From Sphaerotilus uruguayifluvii (GTDB taxonomy: Bacteria; Pseudomonadota; Gammaproteobacteria; Burkholderiales; Burkholderiaceae_C), in assembly GCF_013294065.1 (NCBI RefSeq), contig NZ_JABSNM010000007.1:62001-126000 (forward strand): a stretch of DNA of 64,000 nt. Reading direction: 5' to 3'. Position numbers and translations under genes: made by a program. Position 1 is the first letter of the stretch; every line of letters begins with the position of its first letter. Below are positions 22,667-39,600 of this stretch, one piece after another. The notes beneath the pieces were generated by a model. The model searched no databases. It had not been told where the DNA came from and saw only the letters and a list, made by a program, of their open reading frames with translations.

Positions 22667-22691
22667 AAAGAACGAACGATCGTTCTTTTTT
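22667..22691 (+). terminator. Hairpin plus T-run after the aminotransferase gene, also a palindromic operator candidate
   Basis: AAAGAACGA and TCGTTCTTT pair across ACGA to give a 9-bp stem, followed directly by three further T's (six in a row in total), as in an intrinsic terminator. The same bases include a perfect 12-bp palindrome GAACGATCGTTC (22674-22685), of the kind bound by TetR-type repressors. It lies 21 bases before the next ATG. Both readings fit the sequence. Confidence 0.55.
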
Positions 22692-22711
22692 GCGTGCCAG
22701 AATCGGCGCCC

Positions 22712-23449: not shown

Positions 23450-24150
23450 CCACCCCTGTCCTGACCCCCGAGGAACGCCGGAACATCGAATCCGGCCCCT
23501 GGTTCTCCAAGCTGTCGCCGGCGCTGCGCCACGACATCATCAGCCGCACCATCATCCGCCGCTATCCGGACGGCATCCAGATCGGCACCCGCGGCGCGCC
23601 GGCCACCGACTGGATCGCGGTGGCCAGCGGCGCGGTGCGGGTCAGCTCGGTGTCGATGTCGGGCAAGCAGATCACGCTGACCTATGTCGAGCCCGGCACC
23701 TGGTTCGGCGACATCTCGCTGTTCGACGGCCTGCCGCACACGCACGACGCGACCACGCACGGCCCGACCACGCTGCTGATCGTGCGCAAGCACGACTTCT
23801 TCGACCTGCTCTCGCGCCACCTGGAGCTGTCGGAGGCGCTGCTGCGGCTGAACTGCCGCCGGCTGCGGCTGATGTTCGCCTCCTTCGAGGACCTCAACAC
23901 CCGGCCGCTGTCGGCCCGTCTGGCCAAGCAGGTGCTGCACCTGTCGCGCAGCTACGGCATCAGCCACGGCGAGGAGATCCGCATCGGCCTGCAGCTGGCG
24001 CAGGAAGACCTGGCGCAGCTGGTCGGCGCCTCGCGCCAGCGGGTCAACCAGGAGCTCAAGAGCTTCGAGCGCGAGGGCGCGGTGCGGGTCGAGCCGACCC
24101 GGCTGGTGGTGCTCTCGCGCGAGAGGCTGATGGCGATCGCCGAGCGCTGA
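23446..24150 (+). CDS. Crp/Fnr family transcription regulator
   Basis: The 234-residue protein has an N-terminal cyclic-nucleotide-binding beta barrel (about 20-135, including GTWFGDISLFDGLPHTHD) and a C-terminal winged helix, in which GLQLAQEDLAQLVGASRQ near 187 is the recognition region. The N-terminal cysteine cluster of FNR is absent: the only cysteine I see is in RLNCRRLRL. Oxygen sensing by an iron-sulfur cluster is therefore excluded, leaving a nucleotide or another small ligand. The ATG overlaps the upstream phosphatase stop (ATGA). Three CRP-type dyads elsewhere in the window (12894, 49797, 56354) could be targets of this or another family member; that is inference only. Confidence 0.92.
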   Translation: MTTPVLTPEERRNIESGPWFSKLSPALRHDIISRTIIRRYPDGIQIGTRGAPATDWIAVASGAVRVSSVSMSGKQITLTYVEPGTWFGDISLFDGLPHTHDATTHGPTTLLIVRKHDFFDLLSRHLELSEALLRLNCRRLRLMFASFEDLNTRPLSARLAKQVLHLSRSYGISHGEEIRIGLQLAQEDLAQLVGASRQRVNQELKSFEREGAVRVEPTRLVVLSRERLMAIAER

Positions 24151-24194
24151 ACGCCGAACGCCCCCGATTCCGCCCCTGCCAGGAGATGCCTGCG

Positions 24195-25295
24195 ATGACC
24201 TCTTCCGCCCCGACCACCCGCCCGGTGGCCCCGCAGCATGCCTTCGACGCCGACGCGCTCGCCGCCTGGCTGCGCGGACGGCTCGACGGCTTCGACGGCC
24301 CGCTGCAGGTCGAGCAGTTCAGCGGCGGCCAGTCCAACCCGACCTTCCGGCTGCACACGCCCGCCGGGCAATGGGTGATGCGCGCCAAGCCGGGGCCGGC
24401 GGCGAAGCTGCTGCCCTCGGCGCACGCGATCGAGCGCGAGTACCGGGTGATGGGCGCGCTGGCCGCCACCGAGGTGCCGGTGCCGCGCATGCTACTGCTG
24501 TGCGAGGACGAGGCGGTGATAGGCCGCGCCTTCTACCTGATGGAGCATGTCGAGGGCCGGGTGCTGTGGGACCAGACGCTGCCGGGCATGACGCCGGCCG
24601 GGCGCGGCGCGATCTACGACGAGATGAACCGCGTGATCGCCGCGCTGCACCGGGTCGATCCGCAGGCGGTCGGCCTGGGCGACCACGGCCGCCCGGGCAG
24701 CTACTTCGAGCGCCAGATCGCGCGCTGGAGCCGCCAGTACCAGGCCTCGGTCACCGAGCCGATTCCCGAGATGGACCGGCTGATCGACTGGCTGCCGGCG
24801 CACCTGCCCGCGGCCGCGCGCGACGACACGCAGGTCGCGGTGGTGCATGGCGACTACCGGCTCGACAACCTGATCTTCCATCCGACCGAGCCGCGGGTGC
24901 TGGCGGTGCTGGACTGGGAGCTGTCGACGCTGGGCCACCCGATCGCCGACTTCAGCTACCACGCGATGTCCTGGCACATCCCGCCGGGCGCCTTCCGCGG
25001 CATCGGCGGCTGCGACCTGCCCGCGCTGGGCATTCCGGCCGAGGGCGACTATGTGCGGCGCTACCTGGCGCGCACCCGCCCGGGCATGACGGCCGACGCG
25101 GTCGAGGCGCTGCTGGCCGACTGGGACTACTACCTCGCCTACAACCTGTTCCGCATCGGCGCGATCCTGCAGGGCATCGCGCGCCGGGTGGTCGACGGCA
25201 CCGCCTCGAGCGCGCAGGCCCGCCAGGCCGCGGCCGGCGCCCGCCCGATGGCCGAGCTGGCCTGGCGGCACGCGCAGCGCGCCGGAGCGCGCTGA
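24195..25295 (+). CDS. Phosphotransferase (APH/choline kinase-like) family protein, ACAD10/11-type kinase
   Basis: The 366-residue protein has the protein-kinase-like phosphotransferase fold. A nucleotide-binding strand-loop FSGGQSNPTFRL lies near residue 44, a Lys in VMRAKPGP near 63, the catalytic loop VVHGDYRLDNLIF near 216 and the metal-binding Asp in VLDWELSTLGHP near 238. This subgroup resembles the kinase part of ACAD10/ACAD11 and LvaA, which phosphorylate hydroxyacyl-CoA or related small molecules rather than antibiotics. No acyl-CoA dehydrogenase gene is adjacent. Of two nearby ATGs, the second is chosen because AGGAG then has 9-base spacing. It follows the Crp gene by 44 bp in the same operon. 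Confidence 0.85.
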   Translation: MTSSAPTTRPVAPQHAFDADALAAWLRGRLDGFDGPLQVEQFSGGQSNPTFRLHTPAGQWVMRAKPGPAAKLLPSAHAIEREYRVMGALAATEVPVPRMLLLCEDEAVIGRAFYLMEHVEGRVLWDQTLPGMTPAGRGAIYDEMNRVIAALHRVDPQAVGLGDHGRPGSYFERQIARWSRQYQASVTEPIPEMDRLIDWLPAHLPAAARDDTQVAVVHGDYRLDNLIFHPTEPRVLAVLDWELSTLGHPIADFSYHAMSWHIPPGAFRGIGGCDLPALGIPAEGDYVRRYLARTRPGMTADAVEALLADWDYYLAYNLFRIGAILQGIARRVVDGTASSAQARQAAAGARPMAELAWRHAQRAGAR

Positions 25296-25316: not shown

Positions 25317-26174
25317 TCAGCGCCGCGGCGTCGGCGGCGGCTGGGTGGGCGCCGGCATCGACATCGCCATCATGTCGCTGTCCATCGGCAGCTCCAGCAC
25401 CGACGGATTCTCGAAGCCCGAGGGCGGCCCCATCGCGCCGATGCGCCCCCCCTTGGTGACCGCCGAGATGCCCGGCCGCGCCGGAGCCGGCGCCGGGGCG
25501 TCGGGCTCGTCGACCGGCCGCTGCAGCGCCTGGCGGGCCGACAGCATCGCCGCCTCGGCCAGCGAGCGTGCGCCGTCGAGCATTTCCGGCTCGAGCGAGC
25601 CGGCCTCGGTGCGCAGGTGCACGCGGCCGCGCAGCGTCATCAGCACCAGCGGCGCGGACTCGCCGAGCCAGAGGTTGGCCGCGCGGCTGACGCGGCTGAG
25701 CAGGTCGCCGTCGAGCCAGCGCCGCGCGTGCACCGGCGAGGACGACATCAGCACGTAGCCCGCCGCCGACGAGGGCACCGCCACCTTCTCGAGCATCGAC
25801 AGCCAGCGCACCTCCTCGGGCAGGTCGGCGTCGATGCCGGTCTGGTGCGCGCTGGTCAGCGTCTGGTAGGCCTCGCCGCCGAGCTGCTGCGCCAGCCGGC
25901 GCGACATGATCATCATCTCCATCTGCCCGGGCAGGCCGGCGTCCAGACGGATGCGCAGCTCGTGGCCGCGGATGTAGGCGCGCTGCGACGGGCCCCACTC
26001 CAGCCGCGCCGGGATGCCGGTGCACTCGAACTCGACGACACGGCCCTCGCCGCGACGCACCCGCTTGAGCTGGTGGCCACGGCTGTGCGCCCAGCCGTCG
26101 AGAAGACGCGAGTCGGGCTCGTCCTGAGGACGGGAGCCGAACATCTTCTGCAGCTTCTGCAAGGCCTTGAACAT
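25317..26174 (-). CDS. Unknown 285-residue protein at the end of the ligase/transglutaminase operon
   Basis: I do not recognise a family. The protein is predicted soluble. An N-terminal basic helix (MFKALQKLQKMFG) leads into a mixed alpha/beta region (about 25-215) with no cysteine-rich or nucleotide-binding motif, apart from one Cys in EFECTG. The last 70 residues are low complexity, rich in Pro, Ala and Met (SDMMAMSMPAPTQPPPTPRR), probably disordered. It is the last leftward gene after three transglutaminase-like genes, 97 bp below the nearest one, so it may belong to their pathway, but it could also be its own unit. Confidence 0.7.
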   Translation of the reverse strand: MFKALQKLQKMFGSRPQDEPDSRLLDGWAHSRGHQLKRVRRGEGRVVEFECTGIPARLEWGPSQRAYIRGHELRIRLDAGLPGQMEMMIMSRRLAQQLGGEAYQTLTSAHQTGIDADLPEEVRWLSMLEKVAVPSSAAGYVLMSSSPVHARRWLDGDLLSRVSRAANLWLGESAPLVLMTLRGRVHLRTEAGSLEPEMLDGARSLAEAAMLSARQALQRPVDEPDAPAPAPARPGISAVTKGGRIGAMGPPSGFENPSVLELPMDSDMMAMSMPAPTQPPPTPRR

Positions 26175-26271
26175 GGTCACGGTCGGGGAGTGGCGGTTGC
26201 GCTGTCTCCTTATCGGCCGGACCGGCGCGCAGCTGAAATCGCGCGGATCCGCGGTGTTCCGGCCCAGGCCG

Positions 26272-27078
26272 TCACGGCGAGGGCATGACCGGCCCGATCT
26301 CGACCTGCACCAGCAGCTGCTCGCCGCCGCCGCCGCTGCGCACGCCGCGGATCGGCGAGCAGGCGGCGTAGTCCGGCCCGACCGCCAGCTGCACATGCCG
26401 CTCGTCGACCAGGCAGCCGTGCGTGATGTCGACGCCGATCCAGCGCCGCAGGTCCGGCTGCGGGCAGACCTGCGCCCAGGCATGGCTGGCGAGCTCGCCG
26501 GCGCCCTCGGTGTGGAAATAGCCGCTGACATAGCGCGCCGGCACGCCCAGCGCGCGGCAGGCGGCGATGAAGGCATGGGCCTGGTCCTGGCAGACGCCCT
26601 CGCCGCCCGCCCAGGCCTGCACGGCGCTTGTCGTCGCGTCGGTGCGGCCGCGGCAGTAGGCGACCTGCTGCGCCACCAGCGCGGCCAGCGCCAGCGCGCC
26701 GGCCTCGTCGCGCGGAGCCGCCGCACCCCGCTCGGCCAGATCGCGCCGCATCGCCACGTCGGAGCCGGCCAGCGCCGACGGCGCCAGATAGACATGCGGA
26801 TCGGGACCGAGCCGGTCGATCTCGACCGGCTCGCCCAGCGTCTCGACGATGCCCGAGGCCTCGCAGCGCAGCTCGCGCGCGCCGGCCTCGACCTGCATCA
26901 GGTGGCCCGGGTTGCCCCAGGCATCGGTGTGCGGCTGCAGTCGGCCGCTGGCGTCGAGACGCCATTCGACGATGCGCTGCGCCGCGGTGTCGCGCGGCGT
27001 CAGGCACAGGTTCTGGAGCGCCGCCCGCAGCGGGCGGGCATAGCGGTAGCGGGTCAGGTGACGGATCTTCAGTTTCAC
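26272..27078 (-). CDS. Transglutaminase-like cysteine hydrolase/transferase, short form
   Basis: The 268-residue protein has the bacterial transglutaminase N-terminal beta domain (KLKIRHLTRYRYARPL onward) and a papain-like transglutaminase core with a complete triad: Cys in GEGVCQDQAHAF near 165, His in ASHAWAQV near 200 and Asp in WIGVDITHG near 218. Such enzymes cleave or exchange amide bonds, and many act as proteases or peptide ligases rather than protein cross-linkers. No signal peptide is visible, so action is cytoplasmic. No ATG is available; GTG at 27076-27078 starts the conserved KLKIRHLT segment, and another GTG lies at 27105. A perfect 16-bp palindrome covers the chosen start. Confidence 0.88.
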   Translation of the reverse strand: MKLKIRHLTRYRYARPLRAALQNLCLTPRDTAAQRIVEWRLDASGRLQPHTDAWGNPGHLMQVEAGARELRCEASGIVETLGEPVEIDRLGPDPHVYLAPSALAGSDVAMRRDLAERGAAAPRDEAGALALAALVAQQVAYCRGRTDATTSAVQAWAGGEGVCQDQAHAFIAACRALGVPARYVSGYFHTEGAGELASHAWAQVCPQPDLRRWIGVDITHGCLVDERHVQLAVGPDYAACSPIRGVRSGGGGEQLLVQVEIGPVMPSP

Positions 27079-27091
27079 GGTCCGGACCGTG
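27076..27091. promoter_or_regulatory. Perfect 16-bp palindrome overlapping a transglutaminase start codon
   Basis: CACGGTCC-GGACCGTG is fully self-complementary, and its left end is the reverse complement of the GTG start. It could be a repressor site or an RNA hairpin controlling initiation. Confidence 0.4.
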
Positions 27092-27124
27092 CATGCAAGA
27101 TCCACGCCGCCACGGCGCCCTCGC

Positions 27125-28180
27125 TCATTCCATCGGCATCACCGTCACGCCGACACGCGGCACCGCACGGCCGCCGCCGCGGATCACCCCGCGCAGCGGC
27201 GCCACGTCGGCGTAGTCGCGGCCCCAGGCCAGCGTCACATGGTCGAGGCCGGCCGGCACCGCGTTGGTCGGATCGAGCGCGACCCAGCCATGCAGCGGAC
27301 ACCAGACCGCGACCCAGGCATGCGAGGCGTCGGCGCCGACCAGCCGCGGCTGGCCCGGCGGCGGCTGCGTCAGCAGATAGCCGCTGACATAGCGCGCCGC
27401 CAGTCCGAGCGAGCGCATCGCGCCGATCATCACATGGGCGAAGTCCTGGCAGACGCCCTGGCGCTGCGCCAGCGCCTCGGGCGCGCGGGTGTTGACCGAG
27501 GTCGCCAGCGGCCGGTACTCGAAGCGGCGGTGGATCAGGTGCATCATCGCCAGCGCCCCGGCCAGCAGCGGCACGCCGGGACGGAAGACCTCGGCGCCGA
27601 AGCGCGCCAGCGAGGCCTCGCGCGGCGCGTACAGCGAGCCCAGCGTGAACTCCACCGCCGGCTCGAAGCCGGCGCCGGGCCGGTAGTCGAGCCGCTCGGC
27701 GACCGCCTCCCAGGCCGGACTGGCCTCGGGCTGCAGCCGCGGCAGCGGCGCGATGTCGGCCACGAAGCTGGAGCTGACCACCAGCCGGTCATGCACCCGC
27801 GAATGCGAGAAGCCCACCCGGTGGTTGCCCCAGGGATCGAGGCTCTGCTGCACGCCCGGCGTCACCAGCACCCGCTCGTCGCCGGCGCGCAGCAGCCCGT
27901 CCGGATCGTCGGGCTCGCCGGGCGCGGCCGGCACGACATCGGGCTGCGGCGTGACCGAGAGCTGCCATTCCAGCACCTGCTGCAGCGGGGTGTGGCGAGG
28001 GCGCAGCATGCCCAGGTGGTGGGCCAGCTCGACCGGCGCGTCATAGTCGTAGCAGGTCTCGTGCAGCACGCGCAGCCGGCGCGGCGCCTGCGCCTCGGCC
28101 GCCTCGGAGGCGGGGGCCGCCGCCGCGATCGCGGGACGCTCGGGGGTCTCGGGGGGCTCTTGGATCTCGGGAAGCGTCAT
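27125..28180 (-). CDS. Transglutaminase-like protein, long form
   Basis: The 351-residue protein has a Pro/Glu/Ala-rich leader (about 1-35), a transglutaminase N-terminal beta domain (RRLRVLHETCYDYDAPV near 36) and the catalytic core. The core has Cys in RQGVCQDFAHVMIGAM near 243, His in DASHAWVAVWCP near 285 and Asp in WVALDPTNAVP near 300. The triad is complete. The family partners with alpha-E and circularly permuted ATP-grasp proteins in many bacteria. Its ATG overlaps the stop of the upstream ATP-grasp/alpha-E fusion (ATGA), so the two are translationally coupled and probably act together. No signal peptide is present. Confidence 0.9.
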   Translation of the reverse strand: MTLPEIQEPPETPERPAIAAAAPASEAAEAQAPRRLRVLHETCYDYDAPVELAHHLGMLRPRHTPLQQVLEWQLSVTPQPDVVPAAPGEPDDPDGLLRAGDERVLVTPGVQQSLDPWGNHRVGFSHSRVHDRLVVSSSFVADIAPLPRLQPEASPAWEAVAERLDYRPGAGFEPAVEFTLGSLYAPREASLARFGAEVFRPGVPLLAGALAMMHLIHRRFEYRPLATSVNTRAPEALAQRQGVCQDFAHVMIGAMRSLGLAARYVSGYLLTQPPPGQPRLVGADASHAWVAVWCPLHGWVALDPTNAVPAGLDHVTLAWGRDYADVAPLRGVIRGGGRAVPRVGVTVMPME

Positions 28181-30771
28181 TGCCAGACGGTGCGGTCGGC
28201 CGGGCCGACATGGGAGAACAGATGCCGGCTGATCTCGCCGGAGACGCCCAGCGCGGCCTGGTGGCATTCCTGCAGCGCGCTCATCAGGGCGCTGTGGCGA
28301 CCGTGGGCATCGCGGGTGCTGAGCGTCTCGAGCGACCAGTCCGACGGACGCGGCAGGGTCAGCGTGACCGCCTCGGCCCAGGCCGGATCGTGGCGGGCCA
28401 GCTTGCGCAGCCGCTCGCGCAGCGTGCGCGCCACCCAGGCCAGCGAGCGCGGGTTGTCGGTGTCCTGCACCAGCAGGTGCAGCAGCGGCGGCACCTCGCG
28501 GCGGGCCTGGAACTGCGCGCGGTAGGTGATGGTCGAGTCGAACAGGCCCAGCAGCAGCGCGAAGCCGTCGTCCAGGTCATGCAGCCCGGCCTGGAAGCCG
28601 GTCTCCAGCGCCTGCGCCAGCATGTCCAGCCGCTCGATCTGGCGCGCGACGCTGAGCAGGCGCCAGCCGTCGTCGCGGGTCATGCGGTCGGTCTGCGCGC
28701 CGGTGATCGCCGCCAGATGCAGCGCGGCCTGGTTGAGCACGCCCAGCACGTCGCTGAGCGGCTCGTGGCCCTCGCGTGCGCCGATGCCGGCGAGCTGGCG
28801 CGGGAACAGCTCGCTCAGGTGCTTGATCAGGCCCCAGTGCTCGGTCGAGAGCCGCTCGCGCAGCGCCTCGGCGCACTGGCGCAGCGCCTGCAGGTTGTAG
28901 CCGACGCTGAAGCTGCCGCGGGTGTCGCCGAGCGAATGGATCAGCGCCCGCTCGAACACCCGCGCGGCCTGCGACGAGCCCTGCACCGGCAGCGGCACCG
29001 CCGCGCCGATCATGCCCTGCCCGACCAGCAGCCGGTGCAGCACCTGCAGCACCGGCGCGCTGCCCGAGGGCAGCGCCTCCAGCGCCAGCCGCGCCAGCCG
29101 CACGCTGTTCTCGGCCCGCTCGGTGTAGCGGCCGAGCCAGAACAGGTTCTCCGCCGCGCGGCTGGTGACCACGCGGCGCCAGCCGGCCAGGTCGGCCGCG
29201 TCGAGCGGGCGCGGCAGCAGCGTGGTGGCGTCGACCTCGCCGTCGGTCAGCACCCAGGTGTCGGTGCTGGCCGAGCCGGACTGCATCGACAGGTAGGCGT
29301 CGACGCCGCTGCGCCGTCCGGCCACCCGGGTCAGGCCGCCGGGCAGCACCTGCCAGCCGCCGGCGCCGTCCGACATCGCGTAGACCCGCACCACCACCGG
29401 GCGCGGCTCGAGCCGGCCGGCATGCCAGACCGGCAGCTCGGAGGGACGCGCGGGCATCACCAGCGTGTGCGCGGCGCGGTCGGCGTCGATGCGCGCCTCC
29501 CATTCGCGCAGCGCCTGCGGCGAGAGCTCGCTGGTCATCACCGGCGCGAAGCTGCGCGTCACCGCACCGGCCGGGAAGGTCGGCACGATCAGGTAGTCGC
29601 GCAGCCGCGGGCGGGTGGCCTCCCAGACGCTGGCCTCGCCGCACCACCAGCTGGTGTGGGCGGGCAGCTTCAGGGGCTCGCCCAGCAGCCGGTCGGCGAT
29701 GCCGGGCCAGAAGGCGCTCAGGCCCGGGCTCTCGAGCACACCGGCGCCGGGCGCGTTGGCCAGCACCACCTCGCCGGCCCGCACCGCCTGCACCAGGCCC
29801 GGCACGCCCAGCGCCGAGTCCGGGCGCAGCTCCAGCGGGTCGAGCCACTCGTCGTCGACCCGGCGCAGCAGCACATGCACCTGCTCCAGCCCGCCGAGCG
29901 TCTTCAGGTAGAGCCGGTTGCCGCGCACCGTCAGGTCCGAGCCCTCCACCAGCGTGATGCCGAGGTAGCGCGCCAGGAAGACGTGCTCGAAGTAGGTCTC
30001 GTTGCGCGGGCCCGGCGTCAGCAGCGCGATGCGCGAGTGCGTCCCGGCCGGGCTGTCGCGCAGCAGGCCCTCGATCATCGTGCGGAAGGCCGAGGCCACC
30101 CGCTGCACCTTCAGCGCGCGGAATGCCTCGGGAAACTGCTGGCCGATGATCAGCCGGTTCTCCAGCAGATAGCCCAGGCCCGAGGGCGACTGGGTGCGCT
30201 GGCCGACCACCCGCCAGCCGCCGTCGGGCGCACGCGCCAGGTCGAAGGCCACCACATGCAGCCAGCGGTTGCCCGCCGGGCGCACGCCGTGCATCGGCCG
30301 CAGGTACTGCGGATGCGCCAGCACCAGCGAGGGCGGCAGCAGGCCCTCGTGCAGCAGATCCTGCACGCCGTAGAGATCGGCCAGCGTCGCGTCGAGCAGG
30401 CTGGCGCGCTGGCGCACGCCGGCCTCGATGTGGCGCCACTCGTCGGGCGTGATCAGCAGCGGCAGCAGCTCCAGCGGCCAGGAGCGCGCGCTCTCGCCGC
30501 CTTCGGCATAGACGTTGTAGGTCGCGCCGTCCTCGCGCACCCGGCGCTGCACCCGCGACTGCCGCGAGGACAGGTCCAGCCAGCCGGCCACGCCGTTGGC
30601 CTCGAAGAAGCGTTCCCACACCGGCGCCAGGCCGGAGGGGGTCGCCGGGGACCCGGACCCGACGAGCACCCCGCGCAGCTCGTCATGGTGTCCGGTCGTT
30701 CCGGCCAGCGCCGATGCGGCGGCCAGAAGGGCCGCCCCGGGCGTCTCGTCGGGAAGAAGACTCGATTGCAT
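28177..30771 (-). CDS. Circularly permuted ATP-grasp/alpha-E fusion protein
   Basis: The 864-residue protein joins a circularly permuted type 2 ATP-grasp domain (about 60-525) to an alpha-E helical domain (about 540-860). ATP-grasp family segments include GYLLENRLIIGQQFPE near 195, LTPGPRNETYFEHVFLAR near 245 and LPGGLTRVA near 470. The alpha-E part opens with AAENLFWLGRYTERAENSVR, containing the conserved ER motif. Enzymes of this type are predicted to form amide bonds with ATP. Compared with the stand-alone ATP-grasp protein of this cluster, the segment that carries Lys and the glycine loop ([12 protein letters not shown] there) reads YLIVPTFPAGAV here, so ATP binding may be lost. The ATG of MQSSLLPDE is chosen; it has no strong ribosome site. 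Confidence 0.88.
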   Translation of the reverse strand: MQSSLLPDETPGAALLAAASALAGTTGHHDELRGVLVGSGSPATPSGLAPVWERFFEANGVAGWLDLSSRQSRVQRRVREDGATYNVYAEGGESARSWPLELLPLLITPDEWRHIEAGVRQRASLLDATLADLYGVQDLLHEGLLPPSLVLAHPQYLRPMHGVRPAGNRWLHVVAFDLARAPDGGWRVVGQRTQSPSGLGYLLENRLIIGQQFPEAFRALKVQRVASAFRTMIEGLLRDSPAGTHSRIALLTPGPRNETYFEHVFLARYLGITLVEGSDLTVRGNRLYLKTLGGLEQVHVLLRRVDDEWLDPLELRPDSALGVPGLVQAVRAGEVVLANAPGAGVLESPGLSAFWPGIADRLLGEPLKLPAHTSWWCGEASVWEATRPRLRDYLIVPTFPAGAVTRSFAPVMTSELSPQALREWEARIDADRAAHTLVMPARPSELPVWHAGRLEPRPVVVRVYAMSDGAGGWQVLPGGLTRVAGRRSGVDAYLSMQSGSASTDTWVLTDGEVDATTLLPRPLDAADLAGWRRVVTSRAAENLFWLGRYTERAENSVRLARLALEALPSGSAPVLQVLHRLLVGQGMIGAAVPLPVQGSSQAARVFERALIHSLGDTRGSFSVGYNLQALRQCAEALRERLSTEHWGLIKHLSELFPRQLAGIGAREGHEPLSDVLGVLNQAALHLAAITGAQTDRMTRDDGWRLLSVARQIERLDMLAQALETGFQAGLHDLDDGFALLLGLFDSTITYRAQFQARREVPPLLHLLVQDTDNPRSLAWVARTLRERLRKLARHDPAWAEAVTLTLPRPSDWSLETLSTRDAHGRHSALMSALQECHQAALGVSGEISRHLFSHVGPADRTVWQ

Positions 30772-30877
30772 CGGCGCATCATGCACCGGAGCGCGGGACT
30801 TGCGGCTCCGGGAGAGCCGCAATCGTGTCCCGACGCGTACCGATGTTGCAGTTCCGGATCAGCCGTCGGAGCAGCGG

Positions 30878-33800
30878 TCAGCCCCGGCGCAGGTCCAGCG
30901 TGAACGGGAACTCCAGGCTGCGCTTCGTCTCGCCGACGACCATGCGACCCGGGGTATGGCCCATCGCGAAGAAGCGCGCCAGGCGGCGGCTCTCGGCCTC
31001 GTAGGAGTTCACCGGGAAGGTCTCGTGGTTGCGCCCGCCCGGATGCGCGACATGGTACTGGCAGCCGCCCAGCGAGCGCTCGTTCCAGGTGTCGACCAGA
31101 TCGAAGGTCAGCGGCGCGTGCACGCCGATGGTCGGGTGCAGCGCCGACGGCGGCTGCCAGGCGCGGTAGCGCACGCCGGCGACATACTCGCCGACCCGGC
31201 CGGTGGGCTGCAGCGGCAGCGGCACGCCGTTGACCGTCACCACATGGCGGCGCTCGACCAGGCCGCTGACATGCACCTCGATGCGCTCCAGCGACGAGTC
31301 CACATAGCGCACCGTGCCGCCGATCGCGCCCTCCTCGCCCATGACATGCCAGGGCTCGAGCGCGCTGCGCAGCGTCAGGTGCACGCCCTTGGCCGAGACC
31401 TCGCCGACCTTCGGGAAGCGGAACTCGAAATGCGGCGCGAACCAGGCGGCATCGAAGCCGTAGCCGGCGCGCTGCAGGTCTTCCATGACGTCCTCGAAGT
31501 CCATGCGCACGAAGCTCGGCAGCAGGAAGCGGTCATGCAGCTCGGTGCCCCAGCGCACCAGCGGCGCGCGGTAGGGCTCGTTCCAGAAGCGGGCGATCAG
31601 CGTGCGCAGCAGCAGCTGCTGCACGATCGACATGCGCGCGTGCGGCGGCATCTCGAAGGCGCGCAGCTCCAGCAGGCCCAGCCGGCCGGTGCTGGAATCG
31701 GGCGAGTACAGCTTGTCGATGCAGAACTCGCTGCGGTGCGTGTTGCCGGTGACGTCGATCAGCACGTTGCGCAGCGTGCGGTCGACCAGCCACGGCGGCA
31801 TGTCCTCGCCATAGACTCCCTTGTTGCGCTCGATCTCGCGCAGCGCGATCTCCAGCTCGTAGACCTGGTCGTTGCGGGCCTCGTCCACCCGCGGCGCCTG
31901 GCTGGTCGGGCCGATGAACAGGCCCGAGAACAGGTAGGACAGCGAGGGATGGTTGTGCCAGTAGACCAGCAGCGAGGCCAGCAGGTCCGGCCGGCGCAGG
32001 AAGGGCGAGTCCGCCGGCGTGGCGCCGCCCATGACCATGTGGTTGCCCCCGCCCGTGCCGGTGTGGCGGCCGTCGAGCATGAACTTCTCGGTCGACAGGC
32101 GCGTCTTCCAGGCCGCGTCGTAGAGGAACTCGGTGTGCTGGACCAGCTGGCGCCAGTTCTTCGCCGGGTGGATGTTGACCTCGATGACGCCGGGGTCGGG
32201 CGTGACCTGCAGCAGCGTCAGGCGCGGGTCGCGCGGCGGCGGGTAGCCCTCCAGCACGATCTTCACGCCCTGCGCGGCCGCGGTGGCCTCGATCGCGGCG
32301 AGCAGCTCGAGGTAGTCCTCCAGGCGCGCCAGCGGCGGCATGAAGACATACATCACGCCCGACGGGCTGCCGACCTTCTCGGCCTTCGGGCCGTTGGCGC
32401 GGCGCGGATCGCGCACCTCGACGCACAGCGCGGTGCGGGTGATCCAGTGCGCCGACTCGAAGCGCTGCGGATGGCGCGCCAGCTCCTCGGCGCTCAGGCC
32501 GTCGAGCGGCGACAGGGCGCGCGCGCGGCCGGTCCCGCCGACGTCGCCATCCGACGCGGTCTGACCGCGTGGGTCCCCGCCTTCGCGGGGATGACCGGCC
32601 ATGCTGCCGGTGGCGGGGCTGCCGTCGGCAGTGCCGTAGATGTCGCCGAAGCCGTAGTCGCCGTCGAAGGCGCCGCCCTGCAGCGCCACCGTGCCGCCCT
32701 CGGCGAAGCCGCCGCCGGCCACATGTGCGGCGTACTGCTGGCGCACCACATGGGCCGCGGGCAGCGCGTCGCGCGGCGCGAACGGATCCTGCTCGATCAG
32801 GAAGGGATAGTCCTTCTTCGCCACCCAGGGCAGCGAGTCCAGCGGCAGGCGGTAGCCCATCGGCGAGTCGCCGGGCACCAGGTACATGCGCTCGTCGCGG
32901 AAGAACCACGGGCCGGTGACCCAGCGCGGGCCGCCCAGCGCCGGGCCCTCGGCCGGCTTGATCGGCAGCACGTAGCCGATCTCCTGCTCCAGGCCCTGGT
33001 CGAAGACGCGGCGCAGGCGCATGCGCTCGAGCTCGTCGTCCAGCCGCGAGTCGAAGGGGTCGACGTTGACCGGCAGGCGGCGCTCGCGCCACAGGTAGTA
33101 CCAGGTGTCCTCGTAGCCGGTCTGCACGAACTGGTCGGTCAGGCCCAGGCGCGCGGTCAGGCCGAGCATGAAGCGCTTGGCATCGGCCGAGGTGTACTGG
33201 TGGTTGTCGCGCTCGTCGGCGAACAGCGACATGTCGTGCCAGCACGGCTGGCCGTCGGTGCGCCAGTAGGCCGACAGCGCCCAGCGCGGCAGCTGCTCGC
33301 CCGGGTACCACTTGCCCTGGCCGAAGTGCAGGAATCCGCCCTGGCCGTACTCGTCGCGCAGGCGCTGCACCAGCTCGGTGGCGTAGAGCCGCTTCGTCGG
33401 GCCCAGCGCGTCGGTGTTCCACTCGGCGCCGTCGCGGTCGTCGACCGACACGAAGGTCGGCTCGCCGCCCATCGTCAGGCGCACGTCGCCCGAGCTCAGC
33501 TCGGCGTCGACCTGCTCGCCCAGCGCCAGCACCGCCGACCACTGGTCCTCGGTGTAGGGCTTGGTCACGCGCGGGGATTCCCAGATGCGCGTGATCTTCA
33601 TCTCGTGCGCGAACTCGACCTCGCACTCGTCGACCGCGCCGGTGATCGGCGCCGCGCTCGAGGGCTGCGGCGAGCAGGCCAGCGGAATGTGGCCCTCGCC
33701 GGCCAGCAGGCCGGAGGTCGGATCCAGGCCGATCCAGCCTGCGCCCGGCAGATAGACCTCGCACCAGGCGTGCAGGTCGGTGAAGTCGACCTCGGTGCCG

Positions 33801-34456
33801 CTCGGGCCGTCCAGGGCCACGACATCGGACTTCAGCTGGATCAGGTAGCCCGAGACGAAGCGCGCGGCCAGGCCCATGTGGCGCAGCGTCTCCACCAGCA
33901 GCCAGCCGGTGTCGCGGCAGGAGCCCGAGGCCTTCGTCAGCGTCTCCTCCGGCGTCTGCACGCCCGGCTCGAGGCGGATGGTGTAGCGGATCTCGTTCTG
34001 CAGGCGCTGGTTCAGCCCGACCAGGAAGTCGATCGTGCGCACTTCGGTGCGGTCGATCGTGTCGAGGAAGGCCTGCAGCGCGGGCGTGGCCGGCGCCGGC
34101 TCCATGTACGGGGCCAGCTCCTGCTTCAGGCCGTCCTCGTAGACGAAGGGAAAGGTCTCCGCGCCCGGCTCGAGGAAGAAGTCGAAGGGGTTGTAGACCG
34201 CCATCTCGGCCACCAGATCGACGGTGACCTTGAACTGCGTGGTCTTCTCCGGGAAGACCAGGCGGGCGAGGTAGTTCGAGAACGGATCCTGCTGCCAGTT
34301 GATGAAGTGCGTCTCGGGCTCGACGCGCAGCGAGTACGACAGCACCGGCGTGCGGCAGTGCGGCGCCGGACGCAGGCGCACCACCTGGGGCGACAGCGTC
34401 ACCGGCCGGTCATACCGGTAGTGGGTGACGTGATGGAGAGCGACGTGAATGGACAC
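30878..34456 (-). CDS. Transglutaminase-DUF2126 putative amidoligase fusion
   Basis: The 1192-residue protein starts with a transglutaminase N-terminal domain (SIHVALHHVTHYRYDRPV) and a transglutaminase core with Cys in GSCRDTGWLLVETLR near 173, His in DLHAWCEVYLP near 223 and Asp in WIGLDPTSGL near 236. About 850 residues of DUF2126 follow, which Pfam lists as a putative amidoligase; visible conserved parts are LTMGGEPTFVSVDDRDG, GTGGGNHMVMGGA and RSEFCIDKLYSPDSS. A linker near residues 623-631 is encoded by an in-frame dispersed palindromic repeat. The start is GTG, with AGAAAG upstream; no ATG fits. It is cytoplasmic and the third gene of the leftward cluster. Confidence 0.9.
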   Translation of the reverse strand: MSIHVALHHVTHYRYDRPVTLSPQVVRLRPAPHCRTPVLSYSLRVEPETHFINWQQDPFSNYLARLVFPEKTTQFKVTVDLVAEMAVYNPFDFFLEPGAETFPFVYEDGLKQELAPYMEPAPATPALQAFLDTIDRTEVRTIDFLVGLNQRLQNEIRYTIRLEPGVQTPEETLTKASGSCRDTGWLLVETLRHMGLAARFVSGYLIQLKSDVVALDGPSGTEVDFTDLHAWCEVYLPGAGWIGLDPTSGLLAGEGHIPLACSPQPSSAAPITGAVDECEVEFAHEMKITRIWESPRVTKPYTEDQWSAVLALGEQVDAELSSGDVRLTMGGEPTFVSVDDRDGAEWNTDALGPTKRLYATELVQRLRDEYGQGGFLHFGQGKWYPGEQLPRWALSAYWRTDGQPCWHDMSLFADERDNHQYTSADAKRFMLGLTARLGLTDQFVQTGYEDTWYYLWRERRLPVNVDPFDSRLDDELERMRLRRVFDQGLEQEIGYVLPIKPAEGPALGGPRWVTGPWFFRDERMYLVPGDSPMGYRLPLDSLPWVAKKDYPFLIEQDPFAPRDALPAAHVVRQQYAAHVAGGGFAEGGTVALQGGAFDGDYGFGDIYGTADGSPATGSMAGHPREGGDPRGQTASDGDVGGTGRARALSPLDGLSAEELARHPQRFESAHWITRTALCVEVRDPRRANGPKAEKVGSPSGVMYVFMPPLARLEDYLELLAAIEATAAAQGVKIVLEGYPPPRDPRLTLLQVTPDPGVIEVNIHPAKNWRQLVQHTEFLYDAAWKTRLSTEKFMLDGRHTGTGGGNHMVMGGATPADSPFLRRPDLLASLLVYWHNHPSLSYLFSGLFIGPTSQAPRVDEARNDQVYELEIALREIERNKGVYGEDMPPWLVDRTLRNVLIDVTGNTHRSEFCIDKLYSPDSSTGRLGLLELRAFEMPPHARMSIVQQLLLRTLIARFWNEPYRAPLVRWGTELHDRFLLPSFVRMDFEDVMEDLQRAGYGFDAAWFAPHFEFRFPKVGEVSAKGVHLTLRSALEPWHVMGEEGAIGGTVRYVDSSLERIEVHVSGLVERRHVVTVNGVPLPLQPTGRVGEYVAGVRYRAWQPPSALHPTIGVHAPLTFDLVDTWNERSLGGCQYHVAHPGGRNHETFPVNSYEAESRRLARFFAMGHTPGRMVVGETKRSLEFPFTLDLRRG
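32570..32595. repeat. Dispersed palindromic repeat of the 'GTCATCCCCGCG...GGGGAC' type inside the DUF2126 gene
   Basis: The plus strand reads TGGGTCCCCG-CCTTCG-CGGGGATGAC, an inverted repeat common as an intergenic element in many proteobacteria and similar in form to Neisseria dRS3 elements. Reading across it gives HPREGGDP in the sense frame and WVPAFAGMT on the other strand, the familiar translation of this repeat. It lies in frame in a low-complexity linker of the transglutaminase-DUF2126 protein. No second copy was seen in the window. Confidence 0.75.
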
Positions 34457-34501
34457 GGCGGATTCTTTCTTGAAATGAAAAGACGACCCCGGCGATCGTA
34501 G

Positions 34502-34525
34502 GCACCGTGCATGACGGCACGGTGC
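34502..34525 (-). other. Intercistronic hairpin between alpha-E and transglutaminase-DUF2126 genes
   Basis: GCACCGTGC and GCACGGTGC form a perfect 9-bp stem around a 6-base loop, in the 105-bp gap between the two leftward genes. There is no T-run directly after it. It may be a processing or partial termination site, or a protein operator. Confidence 0.45.
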
Positions 34526-34561
34526 ACGACGCGTCGCCGGGGCGGCGAGACCGGTCCGGGA

Positions 34562-35518
34562 TCAGCCGACCGCGACGAGGAAGTCGCGGCTGATGCCCGC
34601 GCCCAGCTCGTTGACGCGGTCGAGGAACTGCGTCAGGTAGGCATGCAGGCCGGTGGCGAGGATCTCGTCGATGCGGCCGTATTCCAGGTCGGCATGCAGC
34701 CGGCCGGCGCGGCGCAGCGTCTCCGACGAGTGGTCGTTGGCCACCAGCTTCAGGTTGACCTCCACCTCCTGCGTGCAGGCGGCCAGCGAGCGCGGCATGT
34801 CCGGGCGCAGGATCAGCAGCTCGGCGACCTTGTCCGACTGGATGACGTTGCGGTAGACCTTGCGGTAGACCTCGAAGCCGGAGACCGAGCGCAGGATCGC
34901 CGCCCAGTGGTAGAAGTCGTACTCCTGGTCGCGGTCGTCGGCGGCGCCGTAGAAGTCGCTCTCGACCGCATGGAACTTGACGTCGAGCAGCCGCGCGGTG
35001 TTGTCGGCGCGCTCCAGGAAGGTGCCGATGCGCACGAAGTGCAGCGCCTCGTCCTGCAGCATCGTGCCGACCTGCACGCCGCGCGACAGGTGCGAGCGGA
35101 ACTTGACCCACTCGAACAGCGCGCTCGGGTCGCGCTCGAGCAGGCCGTCGCGCAGCAGGCGGTTGAACTCCAGCCAGGTCTGGTTGGTGGTCTCCCAGAC
35201 CTCGGTGGTCAGCGCGCCGCGCACCGCGCGGGCGTTCTCGCGCGCCGCGCGCAGGCAGCTCCAGATCGACGAGGGATTGCGCTCGTCGCGGACCATGTAG
35301 GTCATGACGGTGGCGGCGGTCACGTCGCCATAGCGGCGCGCGAAGTCGCCGCTGAGCTCGGAGATGCTCAGCAGGCCGCGCCAGCCCAGCTCGGAGACGG
35401 CAGCCGACTGCGGCAGCAGCGCGGTCTGGTAGTTGACGTCGAGCATCCGGGCGGTGTTCTCGGCGCGCTCCATGTAGCGCGACATCCAGAACAGGTGGTC
35501 GGCGGTTCGAGACAGCAT
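34562..35518 (-). CDS. Alpha-E domain protein
   Basis: The 318-residue protein is one all-helical alpha-E domain, named for its conserved ER motif, seen here as RYMERAENTARM near residue 15 and again as FLERADNTARLLD near 170. The family has no proven activity but is almost always encoded next to a circularly permuted ATP-grasp protein and transglutaminases, as here, and was predicted from such contexts to take part in peptide-bond-forming pathways. There is no signal peptide or membrane segment. AAGGA lies before the ATG. The ATP-grasp gene upstream ends 49 bp away. Confidence 0.92.
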   Translation of the reverse strand: MLSRTADHLFWMSRYMERAENTARMLDVNYQTALLPQSAAVSELGWRGLLSISELSGDFARRYGDVTAATVMTYMVRDERNPSSIWSCLRAARENARAVRGALTTEVWETTNQTWLEFNRLLRDGLLERDPSALFEWVKFRSHLSRGVQVGTMLQDEALHFVRIGTFLERADNTARLLDVKFHAVESDFYGAADDRDQEYDFYHWAAILRSVSGFEVYRKVYRNVIQSDKVAELLILRPDMPRSLAACTQEVEVNLKLVANDHSSETLRRAGRLHADLEYGRIDEILATGLHAYLTQFLDRVNELGAGISRDFLVAVG

Positions 35519-35567
35519 GGGGAAATCCTTGTCCTTGATTCTTGCGTGTTCTTCGGGTCTTCGCCGC

Positions 35568-36998
35568 TCAGTCCTCGAGCACCCAGGTGTCCTTGGTGCC
35601 GCCGCCCTGCGAGGAATTGACCACCAGCGAGCCCTCCTTCAGCGCCACGCGGGTCAGGCCGCCGCAGACCATCTGCACCTCGCTGCGGCCCGACAGCACG
35701 AAGGGGCGCAGGTCGATGTGGCGCGGCGCGATGCCCTTCTCGACGAAGGTCGGGCAGGTCGACAGGCTCAGCGTCGGCTGCGCGATGTAGTTGCCGGGAT
35801 TGGAGATCAGGTGCTCGCGGAACTTGGCGATCTCGTCCTTGCTCGCGGCCGGGCCGACCAGCATGCCGTAGCCGCCGGCGCCGTGCACCTCCTTGACGAC
35901 CAGCTCGGGCAGGTGGTCGAGCACGTAGCGGAAGTCGTCGGCCTCGCGGCAGAGGTAGGTCGGGACGTTGTTCAGGATCGGCTTCTCGCCGAGGTAGAAC
36001 TCGATCATCTTCGGCACGTAGGCGTAGATCGACTTGTCGTCGGCGACACCGGTGCCGATGGCGTTCGACAGCGTCACGTTGCCGGCGCGGTAGGCCGCCA
36101 GCAGGCCGGGACAGCCCAGCGTCGAGTCCGGGCGGAAGGCCAGCGGATCGAGGAAGTCGTCGTCGAGGCGGCGGTAGATCACGTCGACGCGCTTCGGTCC
36201 GCGCGTGGTGCGCATGAAGACGAAGTTGTCCTTGACGAAGAGGTCCTGGCCCTCGACCAGCTCGACGCCCATCTGCTGCGCCAGGAAGGCGTGCTCGAAG
36301 TAGGCCGAGTTGTACATGCCCGGCGTCAGCACGACCACCGTCGGGTCGTTGATGCCGCCCGGCGCGACCGAGCGCAGCGTCTCCAGCAGCAGGTCGGGGT
36401 AGTGCGCGACCGGGGCCACGCGGTGCTGCGCGAACAGCTCGGGAAAGAGCCGCATCATCATCTTGCGGTTCTCGAGCATGTAGCTCACGCCCGAGGGCAC
36501 GCGCAGGTTGTCCTCCAGCACGTAGTAGGTGCCCGAGCCGTCGGGGTTGGCCGCGCGCACGATGTCGATGCCGGCGATGTGCGAGTAGATGCCGCCGGGC
36601 ACGTCCACGCCGATCATCTCGGGCCGGTACTGCGCGTTGGCCAGGATCTGCTCCGGCGGAACGATGCCGGCCTTGACGATCTCCTGGCCGTGATAGACGT
36701 CATGCACGAAGCGGTTCAGCGCGGTGACCCGCTGGCGAAGACCCGCTTCCAGCTCGCGCCACTCGTGGGCGGGAATCACCCGCGGAATCAGGTCGAAGGG
36801 AATCAGCCGCTCGGTGCCTTCGCCGGAATCCTTGTCGCCGTAGACGGCGAAGGTGATGCCGACACGGCGGAAGATCATTTCCGCCTCTTCCCGGCGGGCC
36901 TGCATGACTTCCCCGGGCTGCTGCTGCAGCCAGCGCTCATAGGTACGGTAGTGGTCCCGGACGACCGGACCGCTCGCATTCATTTCATCGAACATCAT
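35568..36998 (-). CDS. Circularly permuted type 2 ATP-grasp protein
   Basis: The 476-residue protein belongs to the circularly permuted ATP-grasp type 2 family, predicted ATP-dependent carboxylate-amine ligases. Visible segments are [17 protein letters not shown] near 180, [19 protein letters not shown] near 235, [19 protein letters not shown] near 375 with the nucleotide-binding Lys and Gly loop, and [17 protein letters not shown] at the C-terminus. It seems an intact enzyme, unlike the fused paralog two genes on. It is the first gene of the leftward cluster. ATG at 36996-36998 or the next codon starts [10 protein letters not shown]; a frame to 37166 runs into comEC. It begins 43 bp after the comEC stop. 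Confidence 0.93.
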
Positions 36999-37041
36999 TG
37001 TTCTCGTCGTGGTGGTTGAGCGTAGGCAGGAAATAGCAATA

Positions 37042-39600
37042 TCAGGGCCAGCCAGGGTCCCCATCGGTTCCAGGATTCCTGTCCTCACCATCCTGCCAGT
37101 AGCGCCAGCGCTCCGCCCTGGCGCACCACGAGGAAGCGTCCGCACTGCTCCAGTGCCACGCACCACATCGGGTCGTCAGGATCAGATGAGTACCCAAGTC
37201 CCGGTATCTCTGGAGTACCGGCCACGCCGGATGTCCATAGGGATTGAATCGTCCCGATTGCACGATAGCCCATGTCGGCGTCACGGAATTGACAAAGTAC
37301 AAACCGGATGAGGAAGCACTGCCGTGGTGCGGCACCTGGAGCACCTCGGCGCGCAGCGCCTCGGGGTGACGCAGGCCCAGGGCCAGTTCCTGCTCCACGC
37401 CGATGTCGCCGGTCAGCAGCACCCGCCGGCCGCGGGCCGACTCGATGCGCAGCACGCACGAGAGCGCGTTCGAGCTCGCACGCCCCGGACCGGTGCGCTC
37501 GAGCACCTCGGCCTGCGGATGCAGGAACTCGAAGCGCACGCCGTCGTGCTCCCAGCGCAGCCCGTCGCGGCAGGGCTGGTGAGGCGTGCGGGCGCGCAGC
37601 GGGTGGCCGGGCTCGAGCGAGCTGTGCATCAGCCGCACCGGCAGCGCCTGCAGCAGCGAGGCGGCGCCGCCGACGTGGTCGGTGTCGCGGTGGCTGAGGA
37701 CCAGCCGGTCGATCGCGTCGATGCCCTGCGCGCGCAGCAGCGGCACCAGCACCCGCTCGCCCGCGTCGCCGCCCTCGCCGTGGCGGCCGTAGGCCGGGCC
37801 GGTGTCGTGCAGCAGCACATGGCGCGCGGTGCGGATCAGCACCGCGTGGCCCTGGCCGACATCGGCGGCGAGCAGCTCGAACTCGCCGGGCTGCGGCCGC
37901 GGCAGCGCCGGCCACAGCATCGGCAGCAGCGCCGGCAGCGCCAGCAGCCGCAGCCGCACCGGCGCGGGCAGCACCAGCGCCGCCGCTGCGACGATGCCCA
38001 GCGCACGCGCCCAGTCCGGCGCGGCCGGCGCGCTCCAGACCGCGCCCGGCCATGCCGCCAGCGGCGCGACCGCCGCGCGCAGCGCCTCGGCCCCCTGCAG
38101 CGCCGGCCACCACAGCGGCTCCAGCAGCAGGCCCAGCAGCGCCAGCGGCGTCAGCACCAGCGTGACCACCGGAATCGCCAGCGCATTGGCCGGCAGGCCG
38201 ACCAGCGGGATCTGCGAGAAGAACACCAGCGTCCACGGCGCCAGCCCGACGGTGGCGACCCACTGCGAGCGCAGGGCCTCGCGCGCACCGTCCCGGCACC
38301 GCCCGCGCCATCGATCGAACCATCGATCGCGCCACGGCCTGCGTCCGCCTCCGCCCGGGGCGCCGCCACCGGCCGCCTGCGTCGGAGCCGAGCCGAACAG
38401 CAGCGCCACCGCGACGAAGGACAGCCAGAATCCCGGCTGCAGCAGCGCCCACGGATCGGCCAGCGCCACCACCGCGGCGACCACGCCCAGCAGCCGGGGC
38501 GCCGGCCACTGGCGCGCGCCCTCGCGCAGCAGCACCACCAGCGCCAGCATCAGCACGGTGCGCTGCGACGGCACGCCCCAGCCGGACAGCAGCGCATAGC
38601 CGAGCGCCGCCAGCACGCCGGCACGCCGCGCCGCCCGGGGCGCCGGACAGCGCAGCGGCGCGCCCGGCAGCCGCCGCCACAGCGCGCCGGCCAGCACCCC
38701 GGCCAGCCACGCGAACATCGTGACGTGCAGGCCGCTGATCGCCACCAGATGGGCCAGGCCGGCGCGGCGGAACAGCGCCCAGTCGTCCTGCTCGATCGCG
38801 CCCTGGTCGCCGACCGCCAGCGCGGCGATCAGACCGGCGCCCGGTCGCGCGCCGAGCCGCGCGACGATGCGGTCGCGCTGGTCCTGGCGCCAGCGGTCGA
38901 TGCGGTGGCGCCCGCTCTCGCCCAGCGGCACCGCCAGGTCGGCAGGCACCGCCGCGCGCGGTGCGACCACGCCCGTGCCGCCGGCGTCGTCCTCGAAGGC
39001 GGCCAGCACCGCATCCGGCCCCTGCGGATTGACCCGGCCGCCGGGCGGGCGCAGCCGCAGCGTCAGCCGCCAGCGCTGGCCGGCGCGGGGCGCCTGAGCG
39101 CGCGCCGGCACCGGCTCGGCGGCGCTGGCGGGCCAGACCACGCGCAGGCGCGGCGGCAGCGGCGGCGGCGCGTCGCCGTTGACGCGGCTCCCGGCCGCGG
39201 TCAGCGTCGCCGGCCAGCCGGCCCGCTCGACCTCGAGCAGCCCGCGCCAGCGCCCGGCCTCCATCTGCGGCAGCCCGGCGACGACGCCCTCGACCTGCAC
39301 CAGCCGGTCCGACAGCGCCGGATCGAGCCGGTGGGACAGCCGCTGCGCCGCGCGCACGTCGGCCTGCAGCGCCGCCAGCAGCGCGCAGGCCGGCAGCAGC
39401 ACCCATGCGGCCGCGGTGCGCCGCCCACGCCGCGCGAGGACCAGGCCCGCGGGCAGCAGCGCCAGCGCAGCCCCCAGCAGCATTCGCCGCAGCGAGGCCT
39501 CCAGCGGGGCCGGCAGCTGCAGCTGCGCCGCGATGCCGGCCAGCACCGCGGCGGCCAGCAGGCCCAGCGGCAGCACCGGTGCGCCGGCGCGCATCTCCAT
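37042..39600 (-). CDS. comEC: DNA uptake channel protein ComEC/Rec2
   Basis: The 852-residue inner-membrane protein forms the channel for single-stranded DNA entry in natural competence. An N-terminal hydrophobic pair (about 8-65) precedes the soluble OB-type region. The Competence domain follows (about 225-500), with [18 protein letters not shown] near 283 and [13 protein letters not shown] near 340. The C-terminal metallo-beta-lactamase-like domain (about 575-830) has [21 protein letters not shown] and [10 protein letters not shown], so metal-binding residues for a nuclease are present. The last ~70 codons, from about 37300 to 37100, use AT-richer codons than the rest of the gene. A TACACT on the coding strand about 50 bases upstream is a possible -10. 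Confidence 0.94.

Follow-up and report, generated by a model that had tools for sequence, protein, structure and literature searches.

Two modules and recurring sigma-54-type sites in an ATP-grasp, alpha-E and transglutaminase gene cluster of Sphaerotilus uruguayifluvii

Gene neighbourhoods that combine ATP-grasp, alpha-E and transglutaminase-like proteins have been predicted to direct peptide synthesis (Iyer et al. 2009, as cited in PMC6376114, PMC5666114 and PMC3597751). They share their families with the gene cluster considered here, which lies on the minus strand of a 64,000-nt stretch of the Sphaerotilus uruguayifluvii genome (hereafter the window; GCF_013294065.1, NZ_JABSNM010000007.1, 62,001-126,000, all positions being given in window numbering). 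The ATP-grasp protein of the Anbu operon of Yersinia bercovieri releases phosphate from ATP (PMC6376114). In Burkholderia cenocepacia H111, the genes I35_5080-83, which encode DUF404/407, DUF403 and two transglutaminase-like proteins, were reported to require sigma-54 and NtrC (PMC5491218). In Pseudomonas putida, PP_2685 and PP_2688 are up on nitrate relative to ammonium (PMC8050072), and PP2685-2687 are up under nitrogen limitation (PMC3325844). The abundance of these domains in marine metagenomes tracks that of urea-metabolism domains (PMC3597751). In Sinorhizobium meliloti SM11, the hits linked to nodule competitiveness included a regulatory region belonging to a gene for a COG2308 (circularly permuted ATP-grasp) protein (PMC8407117). 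The portions of the literature searched contain no demonstrated substrate or product for the gene set.

Computational comparison of the window cluster with its relatives reveals six conserved genes organized as two modules, with sigma-54-type sites that recur before each module, and shows that one of the two ATP-grasp proteins lacks the majority of the positions conserved throughout the other. Since the sequence evidence points to amide-bond chemistry and the promoter evidence to nitrogen limitation, nitrogen salvage is favored. The cluster is read here as an amide-bond system induced by nitrogen limitation, made of two co-regulated modules and most likely serving nitrogen salvage or recycling; this reading is tentative, the leading one rather than a probable one.

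Six genes in two modules

Seven frames run leftward from 36998 down to 25317. All are open, and their GC content at third codon positions (GC3) of 0.92-0.97 is the codon bias of real genes. From the upstream end they are:

35568..36998, minus strand: first gene of module A, encoding a circularly permuted ATP-grasp ligase of 476 aa (Pfam PF14403, CP_ATPgrasp_2, 4.5e-168)
34562..35518, minus strand: second gene of module A, encoding a free-standing alpha-E protein of 318 aa with two ER motifs (PF04168, Alpha-E, 2.4e-97)
30878..34456, minus strand: first gene of module B, encoding a 1192-aa fusion of a transglutaminase-like domain with DUF2126 (PF08379, Bact_transglu_N; PF01841, Transglut_core; PF09899, DUF2126, E=0)
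28177..30771, minus strand: second gene of module B, encoding an ATP-grasp/alpha-E fusion protein of 864 aa (PF14403, 4.6e-134; PF04168, 2.7e-55)
27125..28180, minus strand: third gene of module B, encoding a transglutaminase-like protein of 351 aa (PF01841, 4e-21)
26272..27078, minus strand: third gene of module A, not always present in other genomes, encoding a transglutaminase-like protein of 268 aa (PF01841, 2.7e-19)
25317..26174, minus strand: neighbor, 285-aa protein with no Pfam match

Gene starts were placed partly by eye (ATG at 30771 for the fusion gene, whose frame opens with a TTG at 30822, and GTG for 26272..27078). The intergenic gaps, from the ligase to the 25317..26174 gene, are 49, 105, 106, -4, 46 and 97 nt, the negative value being an ATGA overlap at 28180-28177 between the stop codon of the fusion gene and the start of 27125..28180. 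A preliminary description of this DNA had reported seven leftward genes of these families in tight order with one ATGA overlap, which the open frames, GC3, Pfam matches and gaps confirm. No NCBIfam family was assigned to any of the seven proteins. The preliminary description had placed all steps in the cytoplasm, and inspection by eye revealed no signal peptide in the cluster proteins. The closest match to the DUF2126 protein in the named genome collection, from which very near records may have been left out, is on a Sphaerotilus contig (84% identity).

All seven genes are real, and six of them constitute the conserved system. Gene orders were compared in 140 loci, comprising 40 stretches picked by the ligase, 80 named loci picked by DUF2126 (the top-scoring part of a larger set) and, from outside the family, a further 20 stretches, which were chosen for DUF2126 from 60 genomes having this domain. 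As the loci were selected by ligase or DUF2126, counts of presence are biased. Module A consists of the circularly permuted ATP-grasp protein, alpha-E, an optional transglutaminase and sometimes Anbu, and module B of transglutaminase-DUF2126, the fusion protein and a transglutaminase. The modules recur together or apart, with ligase and alpha-E as same-strand neighbors in 101 cases, DUF2126 and fusion in 106, and fusion and transglutaminase in 116. In the commonest layout, the two modules are divergent and flank comEC (20 of 120 loci). Module A of the window is interrupted by module B, which separates alpha-E from the module-A transglutaminase; in other genomes the latter comes after alpha-E, and it stands before Anbu in 5 of the first 120 loci. 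Outside the family, the stretch contains all three module-B genes in 19 of 20 cases, with direction and order not always shared, and ligase and alpha-E in 11 of 20. Conserved co-occurrence across genomes, which had been set beforehand as the test of the proposal, was thus found, the families being adjacent well beyond the genus. The gene set is common: of 199 genomes sampled from the phylum, 60 have DUF2126.

The seventh gene behaves differently. Its homologues occur in 65 of 120 genomes of the family, and matches to the ligase protein in 106 of 120, a count that includes at least two genomes (G008 and G118) in which the sole match scores like the fusion protein. Of the 65 genomes with a homologue, just two, the window genome and a second member of its genus, have it no more than 20 kb from the ligase. 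In the remaining 63, it is on another contig, more than 20 kb away or in a genome without a ligase match, the next-closest spacing being approximately 22 kb (G098); in some fragmented assemblies, this distance cannot be judged. Among the 80 named loci, a homologue is adjacent in two, L084 and L123 (a Sphaerotilus and one further metagenome-assembled genome). As its homologues are mostly away from the ligase, 25317..26174 was rejected as a pathway member and is, from these distributions, probably a bystander outside the conserved set; the preliminary count of seven member genes gives way to six and a neighbor. Beyond the downstream end of the cluster, genes for an APH-family phosphotransferase and a cyclic nucleotide monophosphate (cNMP)-binding/Crp-like regulator lie on the opposite strand, at 24186-25295 (+) and 22690-24150 (+).

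Predicted promoters and regulator sites

The region upstream of the ligase contains the following features:

37042..39600, minus strand: comEC (PF03772, PF13567, PF00753), which often adjoins the modules in relatives
37035..37050, minus strand: predicted sigma-54 promoter TGGCCCTGATATTGCT, straddling the comEC stop codon, with its -24 element 52 nt before the ligase ATG
37142..37156, minus strand: NtrC-like dyad GCACTGGAGCAGTGC, located in the 3'-terminal part of comEC
37316..37330, minus strand: second NtrC-like dyad GCACCACGGCAGTGC, inside comEC, a weaker claim

The function of comEC is presumably unrelated to the modules. Taken alone, the sigma-54-type site of the window means little, since 6.35 matches of the looseness of TGGCCCTGATATTGCT are expected by chance in 64 kb, where 3 were found, and the window holds four sites scoring at least 13.5, the one at 37050-37035 included. 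The argument for a promoter comes from its recurrence. Among 30 ligase loci, including that of the window, 27 have a site scoring at least 12.5 at -34 to -57; the best site is elsewhere in L014 and L028, and it scores 11 in L033. Promoters and dyads were counted in 120 loci; 13 genes lying less than 300 nt from the end of a locus were left out of the promoter counts. Sites scoring at least 13.5 precede 62 of 91 ligase genes and 58 of the 67 DUF2126 genes that start a unit, versus none of 31 internal DUF2126 genes. Among the controls, such sites were found before 0 of 90 alpha-E genes and 3 of 94 fusion genes, and in 4.3% of 4000 random stretches. At a threshold of 12.5, the counts are 82/91 for ligase, 61/67 for DUF2126 when first, 7/31 when internal, 7/90 for alpha-E and 23/94 for fusion, with 21.1% for random stretches. 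Removal of near-duplicates (95% identity) left the reading unchanged (at least 13.5: ligase 59/84, DUF2126 first 51/59, internal 0/28), and ligase genes located downstream of another module gene have a site of their own scoring at least 13.5 in 10 of 12 cases. Fisher's test on DUF2126 first versus internal gives 9e-18, a value that overstates independence because the loci are related.

Dyads of the NtrC type (GCAC-N7-GTGC, scanned over 300 nt above promoters) occur above 22 of 81 ligase promoters versus 1.8% of 3000 random stretches. The window as a whole has six, compared with 4.85 expected. Features of an NtrC/sigma-54 regulon are present, in that a predicted promoter of the -24/-12 type with an NtrC-like dyad upstream stands in a genome that carries rpoN and, over the curated cut-off, ntrC. 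The recurrence of sigma-54-type sites in the family fits the published NtrC/sigma-54 control in B. cenocepacia. In another strain of that species, scanning found a site scoring 14.5 ahead of the ligase and a dyad located 79 bp further upstream; from its gene order rather than from locus tags, the scanned cluster is taken to be that of I35_5080-83.

On the Acidithiobacillus caldus plasmid mpAca1.1 (L224, NZ_CP005987.1 14489-37182), ligase, alpha-E, ntrC, glnL, two Anbu-like genes and genes for an amino-acid permease and an aliphatic amidase lie within approximately 21 kb, and sigma-54-type sites precede both the ligase and glnL-ntrC. The same stretch has a DUF2126 gene in pieces and surrounding transposase genes. 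The two Anbu-like proteins share 42-43% identity with an Anbu, and the Pfam cut-off is passed by one of them and not by the other.

The proteins and their neighbors

The preliminary description had counted two ATP-grasp units, of which only the first is predicted to be a working ligase. In the 35568-36998 protein, the metal- and nucleotide-binding motifs of an active circularly permuted ATP-grasp enzyme are present, and E218, N220, K425, G431, G432 and N517-G523 (numbering of the P0007 frame) are kept in 93 of 93 sequences. Its closest solved relative is 3n6x (E 6.9e-227), annotated as a putative glutathionylspermidine synthase, the function of 3n6x itself being putative only. The second unit, 28177-30771, matches the family, with the corresponding motifs missing. 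Among 112 fusion proteins, E218 is found in 1% and N220, Y433, N517 and S519 in 0%; G429 (15%), G431 (20%), G432 (24%) and K425 (50%) are kept in part, and G521 (93%), D526 and W528 are each retained in more than 90%. The lost residues correspond to those that bind metal and ATP in ATP-grasp enzymes. With most of the invariant ligase residues gone, 28177-30771 was rejected as a second active ligase, and the ATP-grasp half of the fusion protein is likely a pseudo-ligase. As it retains the ATP-grasp fold, a scaffold or regulatory role would be the natural expectation. The free alpha-E protein keeps both ER pairs in 100% of 104 sequences.

The triad of Cys, His and Asp noted previously is present in each of the three transglutaminase-like proteins of the window. 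It is conserved in 100% of 119 transglutaminase-DUF2126 proteins and in 100% of 114 proteins of the 27125..28180 type. A first structural model of DUF2126 (23 sequences, predicted local distance difference test (pLDDT) 65.2) yielded weak matches, the best being to a glutamine synthetase (GS) relative with an E of 0.17. With a second model (57 sequences, pLDDT 77.9, predicted template modelling score (pTM) 0.79), 19 of the 20 top Foldseek rows belonged to the GS family, many of them chains of few proteins, with a best E of 0.21; neither model gave a Foldseek row at E 0.001 or better. When DUF2126 was compared by profile with 19 GS relatives and 6 GCS2 relatives, the best E values were 0.12 and 0.089, none significant, the unrelated ATP-grasp control giving 0.16, and the best piece of this non-significant comparison pairs the GGEPTF motif of DUF2126 with the GPEPEF motif of GS. 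Judged by eye, the order of the motifs resembles that of GS, and DUF2126 is reportedly covered in the 2009 prediction of these neighborhoods. A GS-like fold is a likely candidate for DUF2126, as suggested by the modelling. The combination of an intact ATP-grasp ligase with DUF2126 and with enzymes bearing a Cys-His-Asp triad points to amide-bond chemistry, as first proposed for this cluster.

Anbu was found in 9 of the 140 fetched stretches. The window genome has none: its sole PF00227 match is an hslV-like gene beside hslU on another contig (both recognized by eye), and an Anbu hidden elsewhere in the genome was rejected, this being the only proteasome-family gene. A search for a small co-occurring peptide gene had also been suggested. 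No convincing cluster of precursor genes, such as a ribosomal (graspetide-like) peptide system would have, was detected among ORFs (open reading frames) of at least 30 aa, within 1.5 kb, recurring in at least 6 of 140 loci, in a search that could miss shorter or faster-changing genes and whose recurring ORFs were annotated in part. The short recurring ORFs include one of 36 aa directly before DUF2126 in 6 loci, and others that overlap a RidA-like gene.

Of the 140 loci, 42 have a gene of the RidA/YjgF family next to module B or comEC (e.g., L116:16585-17028 and L085:3653-4105), with no such case in the 20 stretches outside the family. As all 42 loci are inside the family, the RidA-like gene was set aside as a part of the system and treated as lineage synteny. 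The nitrogen-limitation data for P. putida list a putative endoribonuclease gene, PP2689, after PP2685-2687 (PMC3325844). In 14 of the 140 loci, three of them outside the family, a gene for a Peptidase_Mx zinc-metallopeptidase (PF15887) lies no more than 1.4 kb from a module gene (example loci are L157:7612-9021, L169:4201-5277 and L182:6772-7821); the window genome carries two such genes, on a different contig. Genes for TgpA-type transglutaminases lie approximately 5 kb or less from the modules in 11 of 140 loci (L038, L042, L049, L052, L053, L055, L061, L087, L101, L111 and L142). Of the first 40 loci, 7 contain a MoxR-type AAA ATPase cluster, and these are for the most part TgpA loci as well.

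Proposed role and relation to known systems

Under the nitrogen-salvage reading, shortage of nitrogen would cause NtrC, with sigma-54, to turn on both modules. The intact ATP-grasp ligase would activate a carboxylate with ATP and join it to an amine, and the DUF2126 domain, a suspected GS-like amidoligase, would probably perform a comparable ATP-dependent joining. The three transglutaminase-like thiol enzymes might hydrolyze or exchange such amide bonds, and the fusion protein, with its alpha-E half, may act as a scaffold or regulator. The purpose would most likely be the capture and recycling of nitrogen from amines, peptides or amide-linked polymers. Besides the recurring sites and dyads, this reading draws independent support from the published expression data for B. 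cenocepacia and P. putida, the gene content of the A. caldus plasmid and the marine association with urea metabolism, as well as from the phosphate release by the Y. bercovieri ATP-grasp protein. A more specific formulation appears rather unlikely, namely a pathway dedicated to nitrogen starvation whose two amidoligases, together with three thiol transamidases, assemble and take apart an amide-linked nitrogen carrier or protein tag, with a dead ATP-grasp/alpha-E scaffold and one sigma-54/NtrC promoter per module.

A number of observations weigh against nitrogen salvage. Salvage itself is a guess from regulation. The loci are related, so the promoter counts are not independent. Outside the family, a site scoring at least 13.5 precedes only 5 of 29 module-gene starts, and one scoring at least 12.5 only 10 of 29, which makes nitrogen control lineage-limited and not universal. 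NtrC-type dyads are few above module B (4 of 59 DUF2126 promoters), and the ligases of the window and of B. cenocepacia share only 57% identity. The pseudo-ligase assignment comes from residue loss, and half of the fusion proteins keep K425, 15-24% keep the loop glycines and more than 90% keep G521, D526 and W528. The Cys of the module-A transglutaminases is in the expected column in 69% of 26 sequences, reflecting misalignment or real loss, and the link of DUF2126 to GS is weak, with Foldseek E values of 0.21 at best for the second model and profiles no better than the unrelated control.

The main rival to salvage is protein or peptide tagging, in which the ligases would add an amino acid or peptide to proteins, and removal of the tag or breakdown of the tagged protein would fall to the transglutaminase-like enzymes or, in other genomes, to Anbu, as part of turnover in nitrogen starvation. 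Tagging was put forward by earlier authors, cited in PMC6376114 and PMC5666114, to explain the Anbu operon, and both the position of Anbu after module A in 5 of 120 loci and the Peptidase_Mx genes near the modules would agree with it. However, Anbu is infrequent among the stretches and absent from the window genome with its hslV-like gene, no tag gene was recognized among the recurring ORFs, not all of which are annotated, and neither a complex of the operon proteins nor Anbu peptidase activity was observed in Y. bercovieri (PMC6376114). Tagging is regarded as doubtful. The cluster might instead make a small amide-linked metabolite or non-ribosomal peptide under nitrogen limitation, as a store, signal or osmolyte that the transglutaminases trim or cyclize, which comes closest to the view of the preliminary description. 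A ligase, a suspected amidoligase and thiol enzymes do share one unit, and a non-ribosomal product needs no precursor gene. Against this, no transporter or carrier-protein gene was recognized among the partly annotated ORFs recurring in at least 6 of 140 loci within 1.5 kb, a negative that the permease on the A. caldus plasmid qualifies, and a nitrogen-rich product would be costly when nitrogen is limiting; this explanation appears improbable.

Finally, the sigma-54-type sites might reflect chance or coding constraint in comEC, leaving the cluster without nitrogen regulation in the window organism. The overlap of the window site with the comEC stop codon, the number of loose matches expected in 64 kb, the four sites of comparable score and the lack of a site before most module starts outside the family are all in keeping with this possibility. 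Yet sites are also found in L039, L040 and L048, which have no comEC match in the upstream stretch covered, their position is narrowly set in 27 of 30 ligase loci, and they precede DUF2126 when it is first in a unit and not when it is internal; this explanation is very unlikely.

The promoter evidence designates nitrogen limitation as the condition in which to look for the product of the cluster. The module analysis indicates which genes belong together, and the degenerate ATP-grasp half indicates that the fusion protein is probably not a second ligase, which makes the open question on the cluster testable with standard strains.

Among known systems, GS-fold enzymes (GS and gamma-glutamylmethylamide synthetase) resemble the DUF2126 model in the top Foldseek rows, with no significant E value and no significant profile match. 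The Anbu operon (PMC6376114, PMC5666114) comprises ATP-grasp, alpha-E and transglutaminase genes, and module A of the window has those genes in matching order, with module B interposed; the operon has Anbu, whereas the window genome lacks it and has module B. In six loci (L068-L073), the ligase is 65-69% identical to that of the window, and Anbu is present in five of the six. Like the window, the B. cenocepacia cluster encodes DUF404/407, DUF403, transglutaminase-like and large transglutaminase-like proteins. Its order is ligase, alpha-E, transglutaminase, DUF2126, fusion and transglutaminase, whereas module B splits module A in the window, and besides the ligase, alpha-E is 39% and DUF2126 72% identical between the two. 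The gene set is therefore of a known but unexplained kind, to which the present analysis adds a negative result for a precursor gene, a likely pseudo-ligase, and recurring sigma-54-type sites.

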